Origin: an uncultured Anaerolineaceae bacterium
Lineage (GTDB): Bacteria > Chloroflexota > Anaerolineae > Anaerolineales > Anaerolineaceae
Direction of reading: 5' to 3'
NCBI GenBank assembly: GCA_937894825.1
Contig: CALCQT010000522.1
Span: forward strand, 1-17,487
DNA: 17,487 bases
Below the pieces are notes generated by a model. That model worked only from the letters and a program-made list of their open reading frames with translations. It ran no database searches and was not told where the DNA came from. The position numbers and the translations under genes were made by a program. The first letter of the stretch is position 1, and every line of letters starts with the position of its first letter. Positions 1-2,479 of the stretch are shown here, piece by piece.

Positions 1-93
1 TTCAATTTCCTCATCACATCGTTCCCGATAGCCGCAAACCATGCAGCGGCGGGGGAGGGTATTTGTTCGATCATTCGGCTTCAATTTTCTCAT
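1..93 (-). CDS. partial overlapping ORF repeating the Cas4 Fe-S motif
   Basis: A frame opening with ATG at 93-91, inside the end of the upstream Cas4-like ORF, stays open for 31 codons to the window edge. Its last 18 residues repeat the C-terminal cysteine motif of that ORF (PRRCMVCGYRERCDE). The nucleotide copy (1-55) differs from the original (80-134) at about five positions in the core. All of these are transitions and four are silent in this reading frame, so the copy looks as if it was kept as protein code. It may be the start of another small protein, an alternative C-terminus reached by frameshifting, or a decaying duplication. Without sequence left of position 1 this cannot be decided. 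No clear ribosome binding site is seen. Confidence 0.3.
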   Translation of the reverse strand, partial: MRKLKPNDRTNTLPRRCMVCGYRERCDEEIE

Positions 94-135
94 CGCATCG
101 TTCTCGATAGCCACAGACCATGCAGCGGCGGGGAA
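1..135. repeat. 79-bp-offset tandem duplication of the Cas4-like 3' end
   Basis: Positions 1-55 and 80-134 are near-identical direct copies (for example ATGCAGCGGCGGGG at 41 and again at 120). Five transition differences are seen in the matching core. The offset is 79 bp, not a multiple of three, so the second copy lies in another frame from the first. The unit covers the coding sequence of the C-x2-C-x5-C iron-sulfur motif. The left end is cut by the window. Confidence 0.85.
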
Positions 136-613
136 TATTATGCGAACGGTGGAGTTCCTCTTTATTTTTGTGAATCGCATCCGCGTCGTTCAGGGCCGCC
201 TCAATCAGGCGTTTGATCCGGTTCTCTCTCTCAATTGTATACGAAATTTTAAAATCCTTGTCGCGATAGCGGAGCAAACCGTAAGAGGGCCGCCGCTCAT
301 AGACCGCTTCGATCAGCAAACAGTACGCCATCAGTTGGGTGACATGCGCAGGATAAGGCTGGCGGGGCGCTTTGCCGCTTTTGATCTCGACCGGAACAAG
401 CCGATTTGCGTCTTCAAAGATCGCGTCCGGTTTCCCGGACAGATGATAGCGTTCCGAAAACAAGACTTGCGGTTCTTTGGCAAAGGGCGTGAGGTCGTCA
501 TAGACCTGTTTTCCGCCCGGCATGCCCATGCGGCGGCGCTGCTGCTCCAGCAGGATCCACAGGAACAGGGCGACTGCGCCCAGCAATCCCCCAATCCAGA
601 GCCACTGGTTCAT
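71..613 (-). CDS. Cas4/Dna2-like PD-(D/E)XK nuclease, C-terminal half, membrane-anchored
   Basis: 180 aa. Residues 4-22 form a transmembrane helix followed by a basic stretch (QRRRMG), so the rest should face the cytoplasm. The nuclease core follows: D63 in SGKPDAIF, the E-x-K pair E76/K78 in PVEIKSGK, and Q93/Y97 in the QLMAY motif, matching RecB-family motifs II, III and the Q motif of Cas4. The C-terminus has C164, C167 and C173 (CMVCGYRERC), the three C-terminal ligands of the Cas4/AddB/Dna2 Fe-S cluster. The fourth ligand and N-terminal helix are absent here but present in the ORF just upstream, so the two proteins look like halves of one enzyme. Family knowledge: Cas4-type enzymes are ssDNA exonucleases/endonucleases. 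No cas1, cas2 or CRISPR array is seen, so a CRISPR role is not supported. The start ATG overlaps the stop of a 26-aa ORF (ATGA), with AGGA four bases before it, suggesting translational coupling. Confidence 0.75.
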   Translation of the reverse strand: MNQWLWIGGLLGAVALFLWILLEQQRRRMGMPGGKQVYDDLTPFAKEPQVLFSERYHLSGKPDAIFEDANRLVPVEIKSGKAPRQPYPAHVTQLMAYCLLIEAVYERRPSYGLLRYRDKDFKISYTIERENRIKRLIEAALNDADAIHKNKEELHRSHNIPRRCMVCGYRERCDEKIEAE

Positions 614-690
614 TGCGTCCTGCCTGGCGTTAGAAGCGCACGCAAGATCATTCCTGCCGCCATAGCAAGACCAGCATCAACTTGATTCAT
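610..690 (-). CDS. 26-aa mini-ORF between the two Cas4-like halves
   Basis: A short ORF (begins MNQVDAGLAMAAG, ends LLTPGRTQ) joined by ATGA stop-start overlaps to the ORF before and the ORF after it. It is moderately hydrophobic. Its end aligns without gaps to the end of the upstream ORF: LLAQDGTQ-stop versus LLTPGRTQ-stop, 8 of 19 residues identical plus conservative changes, and the same ACGCAATGAA at the junction. It therefore looks like a diverged tandem copy of that terminus. It may be translated only to carry ribosomes across the gap, or be a remnant. No independent function can be assigned. Confidence 0.35.
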   Translation of the reverse strand: MNQVDAGLAMAAGMILRALLTPGRTQ

Positions 691-763
691 TGCGTTCCAT
701 CTTGCGCCAGCAGCGCATACAGGATGATCGCAGCCGAAAGCACGAATAACAGCATCAACAACA
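610..763. repeat. diverged 77-bp tandem duplication at the end of the N-terminal Cas4-like ORF
   Basis: Read on the minus strand, the last roughly 73 nt of the upstream ORF and the following segment both start GTTGATGCTG and both end ACGCAATGAA; the stop-start junctions lie 77 nt apart. The last 45 nt align without gaps at roughly 70 percent identity by eye, with several third-position changes. The similarity is weaker than that of the 79-bp duplication at the window edge. Confidence 0.45.
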
Positions 764-968
764 GCCGGGCCGTCCGCAGCAAAAGCAGTTTCAGCCCGAT
801 CCGGTGATGATAAGCCTGGCCGGATTCCAGTTCCCGTGCGTTCGAACGGAGCAGGCCCCGGCGCTGATACCACCAGGCCCGCCGGCAGGTTTCATAGACC
901 CCCAGTTCCGATGCGGAGACTCTCCCCGGAGACGTCTTTTTTTGCATTGTGTTTTGCTTTTGAATCAT
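687..968 (-). CDS. Cas4-like nuclease, N-terminal half with first Fe-S cysteine and membrane helix
   Basis: 93 aa from the ATG at 968. VSASELGVYETCRRAWWYQRRG (residues 17-38) has the layout of the Cas4 N-terminus, with C28 as the likely first Fe-S ligand and H54/H55 in SGQAYHHRIG as the Cas4 histidine motif. Residues 59-86 are a strongly hydrophobic helix, and the protein ends seven residues later. The nuclease motifs and three remaining cysteines lie in the next ORF (71-613), which begins with another hydrophobic helix. Together they resemble a Cas4-like enzyme with a two-helix membrane hairpin inserted after the N-terminal helix, cut between the two helices. The frame stays open to an ATG at 1121 and has another ATG at 1019, but both lie in repeat sequence and that N-terminal stretch looks non-protein-like. 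The ribosome site is weak (AAGGG about 15 nt upstream). Confidence 0.65.
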   Translation of the reverse strand: MIQKQNTMQKKTSPGRVSASELGVYETCRRAWWYQRRGLLRSNARELESGQAYHHRIGLKLLLLRTARLLLMLLFVLSAAIILYALLAQDGTQ

Positions 969-1391: not shown

Positions 1392-2048
1392 TCAACCGCG
1401 GTCCCGATCGTGCGAATACACATCCACCGCCTGTCTCAGCAGCTTTTTCAGTTTTTCTTCCCGCAGACTCAAGGGCAGGTCCGCCCGGGTCCGCTCAACG
1501 ATTCCGCGCAGCAAATCCGTCTGGCGGCGCAGGCCGTTGGTAACCGCATCCGGATAATCCATCGTGATCAGGATCGAATAAATATCATCCATCTGTTCGA
1601 GCAACTTTTCAGCGTCATCCGAATAGCCCATGCGCAGAATATCCATGCAGCGCCGGCGCAATTCTCCCGGTGTTTCTGCCATACCACGCAAGTAGGTCGA
1701 ATAGGGAACATCCAGTTCCTCAGGTCCGGGGATCAATTTCCCTTCGATGAAGGCACAGGTCAGCACCGCTTCACAATATTCTTTAATCGCATCCTGGCTA
1801 TAGCCGGCATAATAAAGATCGGGAAAACTCTGCAGATCGTCACGCAACTTTTTCACCAGCGTCTCCGCTTCGTTTAAATGCGAATGCGCCAGCTCATTTT
1901 CATTCCGGTGAATAGCCCGGATGGCATTTGCGGCATGCCGGGTCAAGGAGCGGGCCTGCGTCAAGGCACTGTCGCGGGCGATCGTTCTGGCTTCGAAATC
2001 TTTGTATGCGGACTCGGCGATTTGTGAAATTTTATCGGTGTTGTTCAT
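1392..2048 (-). CDS. translin/TRAX-family protein
   Basis: 218 aa, all-helical in character, the normal size for translin and TRAX (about 220-290 aa). Two blocks match TRAX closely: KEYCEAVLTCAFI (residues 89-101) against the TRAX pattern QEYVEAVSFQHFI, and YLRGMAETPGELRRRC (119-134) against YLLGVADLTGELMRMC. E90 and E93 correspond to the TRAX pair needed for RNase activity in C3PO; D144/D145 lie where the third acidic residue is expected. Known for the family: eukaryotic translin/TRAX binds and cuts single-stranded RNA and binds ssDNA; archaeal members exist. The ATG overlaps the ssb stop by one base (TAATG), so it is co-translated with ssb. This suggests a single-strand nucleic-acid task; the actual substrate is unknown. 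Confidence 0.8.
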   Translation of the reverse strand: MNNTDKISQIAESAYKDFEARTIARDSALTQARSLTRHAANAIRAIHRNENELAHSHLNEAETLVKKLRDDLQSFPDLYYAGYSQDAIKEYCEAVLTCAFIEGKLIPGPEELDVPYSTYLRGMAETPGELRRRCMDILRMGYSDDAEKLLEQMDDIYSILITMDYPDAVTNGLRRQTDLLRGIVERTRADLPLSLREEKLKKLLRQAVDVYSHDRDRG

Positions 2049-2479
2049 TAGAATGGAATATCATCTTCATCTACGGAGGATTCACTGTATTCGGGAAACC
2101 CGCCACCGCTGCTCCCGCTGCTGTCGCTATCTGAACGTGAAGTCAGGGAACGGAGCGTTACCGCATTGATTTCAAAGGAGGCTGAGGTGGTCCCATCTGC
2201 CCGGGTCCAGAGACGCGGTCCGCCGGTGGCCGGATCCGGAACAAGTCTGCCTTCGATCAACACTTTATTGCCTTTTTTCAGATAATTGTTTGCATATTCA
2301 GCTAATTTCGACCAGCAACTGATGCGAAACCAAATGGTCTCTTTCACCTGTTGTCCCTGTGCGTTGTTGTATTGCCGGCTGGTTGCCACACTGAAAGATG
2401 TTACGGCAACGCCGGAGGGCGTATAGCGCATTTCCGGATCGCGTCCGATATTGCCAGCTACGATAATAGTATGAAACAT
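2048..2479 (-). CDS. ssb: single-stranded DNA-binding protein
   Basis: 143 aa. An OB fold fills residues 1-104 (VAGNIGRDPEMRYTPSG, the NYLKKGNKVLIEGRL strand pair, SFEINAV). A Ser/Gly-rich linker follows, and the acidic tip DEDDIPF is the docking tail for SSB partner proteins such as helicases, exonucleases and RecO. It coats ssDNA during replication, repair and recombination. The start is clear: AGGAGG stands eight bases before the ATG. It is the first gene of a unit with the translin-like gene. It is not next to rpsF/rpsR as in the common bacterial arrangement, so it may be a second or specialised SSB, although the intact tail fits a fully functional one. Confidence 0.95.
   Translation of the reverse strand: MFHTIIVAGNIGRDPEMRYTPSGVAVTSFSVATSRQYNNAQGQQVKETIWFRISCWSKLAEYANNYLKKGNKVLIEGRLVPDPATGGPRLWTRADGTTSASFEINAVTLRSLTSRSDSDSSGSSGGGFPEYSESSVDEDDIPF

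Follow-up and report, generated by a model that had tools for sequence, protein, structure and literature searches.

A solo-Cas4 nuclease apparently divided between two membrane proteins in Chloroflexota

The window analysed here, a complete contig of 17,487 bases (CALCQT010000522.1, or C522), is one of the 613 contigs in the genome bin of an uncultured Anaerolineaceae bacterium (GCA_937894825.1). Near its start, two short genes on the reverse strand encode proteins that we call the N-half and the C-half (Table 1). A preliminary description, made from the sequence alone, took them for a Cas4-like nuclease split into two membrane-anchored polypeptides; its coordinates, lengths and residues are correct, and the observation as a whole is confirmed. 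The ATGA couplings that it reported are also present. The halves are not coupled directly, an open reading frame (ORF) of 26 codons lying between them: its start overlaps the stop of the N-half at 690-687, and its stop overlaps the start of the C-half at 613-610, so that any coupling passes through it. As the 77-nt stretch between the halves resembles a tandem copy (70%) of the 3' end of the N-half gene, this ORF is probably a by-product of the duplication, with the coupling kept.

Table 1 Features of the locus, numbered along the window; positions preceded by L belong to loci of other genomes. TM, transmembrane; SSB, single-stranded DNA-binding protein.
Feature	Position	Strand	Remarks
N-half subunit, 93 aa	687..968	-	C28 (Fe-S ligand), R30, W32, G50, H54 (motif-I His), then one TM helix
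C-half subunit, 180 aa	71..613	-	N-terminal TM helix, D63, E76-x-K78, H90, Q93-x3-Y97, C164-x2-C167-x5-C173
26-codon ORF, between N-half and C-half	610..690	-	ATGA overlaps at both ends
Tandem pair 606-659 / 683-736	606..736	none	70% identity, spacing 77
Translin-family protein, 218 aa	1392..2048	-	upstream neighbour of N-half, 0.4-kb gap
SSB	2048..2479	-	end overlaps start of translin-family gene
C-halves of family f40 with lost catalytic residues	L143:1322-2311; L144:1353-2411; L145; L146; L148; L149

The C-half (P0003) matches Cas_Cas4 (E 3.2e-9) and PDDEXK_1 (E 2.9e-10). It passes the cut-off of the Cas4 family profile TIGR00372 (65.9 bits against 65) over positions 36-178 of 180, and the Cas4 fold is likewise found; all 29 aligned C-halves match this profile at E up to 1e-3. 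The N-half (P0001) aligns with positions 4-42 of the same profile at 11.5 bits, far under the cut-off of 65, and shows matches to three PADLOC Cas4 models within positions 4 to 45. When solved structures were searched directly with the sequence of P0003, no match appeared at E up to 10; profile searches led from the C-half to Cas4 4r5q (E 9.8e-6) and from the N-half to 8d3l (E 0.07). Since the two halves match successive parts of the Cas4 profile, the pair tiles one Cas4, cut just after motif I.

The cysteines of the iron-sulfur (Fe-S) site are divided as first described. C28 is invariant in 27 aligned N-halves (alignment A1), as are R30, W32, G50 and H54; in the 29 aligned C-halves (A2) the invariant residues are C164, C167 and C173, along with D63, P74, E76, K78, H90, Q93, Y97, R156, H158 and others. 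Only the pair holds the four cysteines of Cas4, and 74 of 76 C-halves have no cysteine ahead of motif II. The full motif string recurs in 71 of the 76 C-halves beyond A2, the five misses all lying outside the Asp and the Glu (RSH is changed to CSH in four). The nuclease motifs had all been placed in the second protein, which does not hold: the invariant H54 of the N-half stands where motif I has its histidine, and the RecB motifs I (His), II (Asp), III (Glu-x-Lys) and Q-x3-Y are complete only across both proteins. The active site, and not the Fe-S site alone, would therefore be shared.

Every N-half in two sets (27 of 27 and 76 of 76) has the arrangement C-x(21 or 22)-G-x3-H, which 10 of 18 single-chain rows from the phylum show with identical spacing. 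These rows were read from hand-picked, low-scoring places; one of them, L172, is a doubtful Cas4 that was counted here and in the hhalign comparison below and dropped from the tree. In SSO1391, according to PMC4176176, the H80A mutant is inactive and the mutated histidine, presumably that of motif I, lies 28 residues past the N-terminal Cys52. Given this mutant and an invariant H54 at Cas4-like spacing, the N-half very likely supplies a catalytic residue as well as a ligand of the Fe-S cluster.

The comparison with relatives that the preliminary description called for shows the split form to be conserved. From a scan of named genomes, the best 80 of 171 relatives, all Chloroflexota, were taken as loci; these 80 loci, a set of 61 relatives and a 301-genome sample of the phylum overlap in genomes. 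A separate N-half ORF is present at 78 of the 80 named loci and a fused form at none, and at the other two a contig edge is about 0.5-0.6 kb away from the C-half. Both halves occur in 42 of the 61 relatives (the window genome included) and neither in 18, among them five genomes of the same genus; one has just a 40-aa piece of the C-half, so that 60 of 61 keep both or none. Where 29 loci of relatives were read, the N-half is just upstream of the C-half in 28 (L010 is cut by a contig edge); at L023, in genome G051, it sits on another contig. More than 250 nt part the halves at 23 of the named loci, with a whole forward gene in between at 21 of these: a HEAT-like protein of about 210 aa 20 times, a MaoC-like hydratase once. 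The HEAT-like insert marks a group of Anaerolineales (L087:7278-7907 and 19 further named loci, with two copies in L071); the one insert checked bears a weak similarity to PDS5/Cnd1.

The phylum sample extends this picture. Of its 118 genomes with a C-half match, 61 reach at least 157 bits, a cut chosen after the table had been seen, and every one of the 61 has an N-half. The two are adjacent in 49 (gaps between profile matches of -6 to 238 nt), separated by a gene-length gap in four and apart in eight: six pairs are divided across contigs (in G154 the N-half is near a contig end), and two lie on one chromosome contig with 0.89 and 2.8 Mb between the halves. In 28 genomes with weaker C-halves (76-137 bits), the N-half was found by profile in 20 and by inspection in four more; the other four are two fusions, one locus cut by a contig edge and one genome (G286) with no N-half in 5 kb. 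The 29 lowest-scoring genomes were left out, and one of them, G134, looks like a further pair. More distant families, read by eye, also have split pairs with one hydrophobic helix per half. A viral origin was considered and set aside: one scan of viral contigs, with a subset of C-halves, found no relative. To judge from these distributions, the halves are inherited together even when far apart on the genome. Since the split is old and common to many relatives, the pair has the look of a genuine enzyme in two parts, not of a broken gene.

Each half has a single hydrophobic helix, placed at the break as originally noted. Charges around these helices were counted in 76 of the 78 pairs, two N-halves cut by contig edges being dropped. 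In all 76, the N-half carries more Lys/Arg before its helix than after it (means 3.12 and 0.22), and the C-half more after than before (3.25 and 0.04). The positively charged flank of a TM helix is, by the positive-inside rule, cytoplasmic; by this rule both soluble parts would be cytoplasmic, the arrangement of a TM hairpin severed at the outer turn. The flank ahead of the C-half helix is only a few residues long; with such short outer flanks, the low charge and hence the asymmetry are partly a matter of length.

In two genomes, G325 and G080, a single ORF runs through N-half, TM helix, short loop, TM helix and C-half. A tree made with IQ-TREE from 74 rows, whose bootstrap had not fully settled, separates 17 rows of single-chain Cas4 from all split and fused forms (support 100/100). 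The fusions appear at two places among the split forms, G080 beside the split G181 (100/99) and G325 adjoining the G080/G181 group (91/71). Nested as they are in the split clade, the fused genes are most likely derived from the split form; as predicted proteins, they show that the two chains can be one.

Altogether, the two membrane proteins quite probably make up a single enzyme, a solo-Cas4 or iron-staple PD-(D/E)XK nuclease cut after the motif-I helix. That the N-half and the C-half assemble into a two-subunit protein, as first suggested, appears highly probable from their co-inheritance, from the natural fusions and from read-through models, in which the stop between the halves is read as Gly and the chains are joined by force. 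The first of the Fe-S cysteines and the histidine of motif I are in the N-half; the C-half has the motif II Asp, the motif III Glu-x-Lys, Q-x3-Y and the three C-terminal cysteines. The TM helices may form a hairpin that lacks the outer loop, and the soluble parts may together adopt a single Cas4 fold. Both the Fe-S cluster and the metal site would arise in the heterodimer only, and neither half would therefore be a complete nuclease alone. In the window species, where the catalytic motifs of the C-half are intact, an active nuclease is likely.

We infer that the pair processes DNA at the membrane as a housekeeping enzyme passed on vertically. Its task might be repair or clearance, by trimming or degrading single-stranded DNA or the ends of DNA at the inner membrane face, and it would then take no part in CRISPR adaptation; in some lineages it would be encoded in an operon together with SSB, a DUF3467 protein and a translin-family protein. 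This role in repair or clearance at the membrane is put forward tentatively and is rather less likely than not. The most far-reaching form of the proposal is nearly evenly balanced, leaning slightly towards the negative: a phylum-old, obligate heterodimer that exists in the membrane only, holds its metal site and Fe-S cluster between two single-pass proteins, is switched on by assembly and processes DNA together with SSB, DUF3467 and translin.

We give almost no credence to the idea that a frameshift or a faulty assembly has broken a single-chain Cas4 gene in this genome alone, leaving a pseudogene. In its favour count the fragmentation of the bin (613 contigs), the 26-codon ORF between the halves and the repeat of the C-half gene's 3' end within which the window stops. 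Against it, the same split recurs at 78 of the 80 named loci and across the phylum sample, whole genes or megabases part the halves in some genomes, and the outcome that the preliminary description had named as refuting its reading, a single fused ORF in relatives with a break only in the window, was not seen; the two fused genomes lie inside the split clade. Comparison with relatives rules out a pseudogene or an assembly error. Unlikely, too, is a C-half that is a complete nuclease alone, with an N-half that docks or regulates and gives no residue to active site or cluster. The C-half does pass the Cas4 cut-off unaided, the residues D, E, K, H90 and Q all lie in it, and the metal ligands of Pcal_0546 (Asp123, Glu136 and His146; PMC4176176) all fall on its side by our reading of the alignment. 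What speaks for a contribution of the N-half is the invariance of H54 and C28 at Cas4-like spacing, the inactive SSO1391 mutant, the near-strict co-presence of the halves and a fold that would lack its first helix if the N-half were missing.

An adaptation enzyme acting in trans, a Cas4 serving Cas1-Cas2 encoded elsewhere, is a distinctly unlikely alternative. The preliminary description saw no cas1, cas2 or array nearby, and this stands for the contig, which has no cas1 or cas2 match beside the genes or elsewhere, and no repeat family of more than two copies at the settings used. It does not extend to the whole genome: a piece of cas1 lies at the edge of another contig, C289, while no cas2 match was found in the genome. 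In the phylum sample, cas1 is present in 48 of the 61 split-Cas4 genomes against 68 of the 240 others, a count confounded by lineage, and in Pyrococcus furiosus a solo-Cas4 has been tied to spacer processing (PMC12538437). The remaining 13 of the 61 carry the pair without any cas1 match; where cas1 shares a contig with the C-half, the nearest among the matches listed is about 34 kb away (G004, by eye), and several genomes own a single-chain Cas4 besides, in some cases next to cas1 (e.g. G032, G223, G276 and G334). We consider it just as improbable that the pair is a non-catalytic membrane complex derived from Cas4, with a DNA-binding or structural task. Against it stand the catalytic motifs, which do not vary among the 29 C-halves of A2, that of the window included, and whose Asp and Glu are kept in the 76 further ones. 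Its best ground is family f40, where the motif-II Asp or the motif-III Glu is gone in six of nine C-halves read, both fusions included: the Asp is absent in G325, G080, G181 and G332, and the Glu is replaced by Ala or Val in G345 and G274 and by Asp in G080 and G181. The cysteines are retained, so that the fold seems to be kept without catalysis at least in that branch, whose complex may be non-catalytic.

These losses also tell against the proposed two-part enzyme, as does G068 of family f32, which has kept its cysteines and lost both the motif-II Asp and the motif-III Glu. Other observations weigh in the same direction. The likeness of single N-halves to Cas4 is weak: P0001 scores 11.5-17.1 bits, Pfam Cas_Cas4 finds 11 of 27 N-halves at E up to 0.1, and one hhalign comparison of the N-half profile with the 18 single-chain rows gave 45% probability (E 3.4e-5). 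The position of H90 is taken by Asp in the Chloroflexota pairs of G341, G175, G334, G223 and G207. Cysteine mutants of two archaeal Cas4 proteins kept their activity (PMC4176176), which means that activity would not have to be governed by a shared Fe-S site. The joined models speak of compatibility between the halves and not of binding, and both fusions come from draft bins (760 and 260 contigs). Finally, the neighbours are not constant: SSB and translin genes stand ahead of the pair at only 20 of the 80 named loci, some of which are cut upstream by contig ends.

As for known systems, a monophyletic solo-Cas4 present in many Chloroflexi, and a mostly vertical inheritance of solo-Cas4, were described by Hudaiberdiev et al. 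in 2017 (PMC5704561); those genes are very probably the same as our C-half. The paper also names a solo-Cas4 of Thermoanaerobacterales. Four conserved cysteines are stated there for all Cas4, of which the C-half has three and the N-half the fourth, and from the main text the words split, transmembrane and translin are absent. Judged by its motifs, the pair is a variant of solo-Cas4, with the family features present across two proteins; we class it as a variant because they do not lie in a single chain. In the CAS-Cas4 of type I-C and in Cas4/Cas1 fusions (PDB 8d3l and 7mi4), by comparison, a Cas4 or Cas4-Cas1 chain is complexed with Cas1-Cas2 and DNA, whereas the window has two membrane chains and no cas1 on the contig. 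RecB-like nucleases with an Fe-S staple also include AdnA, AddB, EXO5 and Dna2, which unlike this pair are parts of helicase-nucleases or exonucleases; to our knowledge, none of them is split with TM anchors.

In the open collection of papers searched, none of the listings showed a description of a split or membrane Cas4, and as far as our searches show this would be the first Cas4 described as split and membrane-embedded. Cas4 is usually treated as a single chain with four cysteines in one protein; Chloroflexota relatives keep two chains. If the proposal is true, genes that drift megabases apart would still be gained and lost together, and the pair would be a natural example of an enzyme that should need assembly in the membrane for its activity. 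The proposal would account for Chloroflexi solo-Cas4 seeming one cysteine short, and would assign a partner to several thousand short proteins, most of them unnamed; the N-half profile retrieves 4499 such short proteins from the database at E up to 1e-3. It would also point to a membrane-linked DNA process in common, poorly studied bacteria.

The gene upstream of the N-half belongs to the Translin / TRAX family (PF01997, E 3.2e-7), with no homology to Cas4 seen. Because the Pfam model proved too insensitive and missed the window's own gene, it was replaced by a profile of our own, which finds the family in 167 of 301 Chloroflexota against 37 by Pfam. With this profile, a translin-family gene is present in 60 of the 61 split-Cas4 genomes and in 107 of the 240 others, and is therefore a broader gene; mean column identity in its alignment (A5) is 68%. 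It also directly precedes the N-half in families f1, f21, f22, f34 and f37 of the phylum sample. Outside Anaerolineales, reading by eye found no constant gene neighbour of the pair.

At 15 of the 20 loci with SSB and translin, the longest ORF between these two genes resembles DUF3467 by eye, and the one tested matches PF11950 (E 6e-22). This protein (L045:6624-7025 and similar) is absent from that place in the window; the order SSB-DUF3467-translin looks like an older operon. In the open collection of papers searched, no study of DUF3467 was found, the one paper listed being unrelated by its title.

Two further observations concern repeats. The final 54 nt of the C-half gene are repeated at a distance of 79 nt, at the contig end (1-54 / 80-133, 91%), either as a true tandem copy or as an assembly edge. 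Two perfect inverted repeats, at 1171-1244 with 35-nt arms and at 1322-1366 with 21-nt arms, lie between the N-half gene and the translin-family gene and may be hairpins or a small mobile element.
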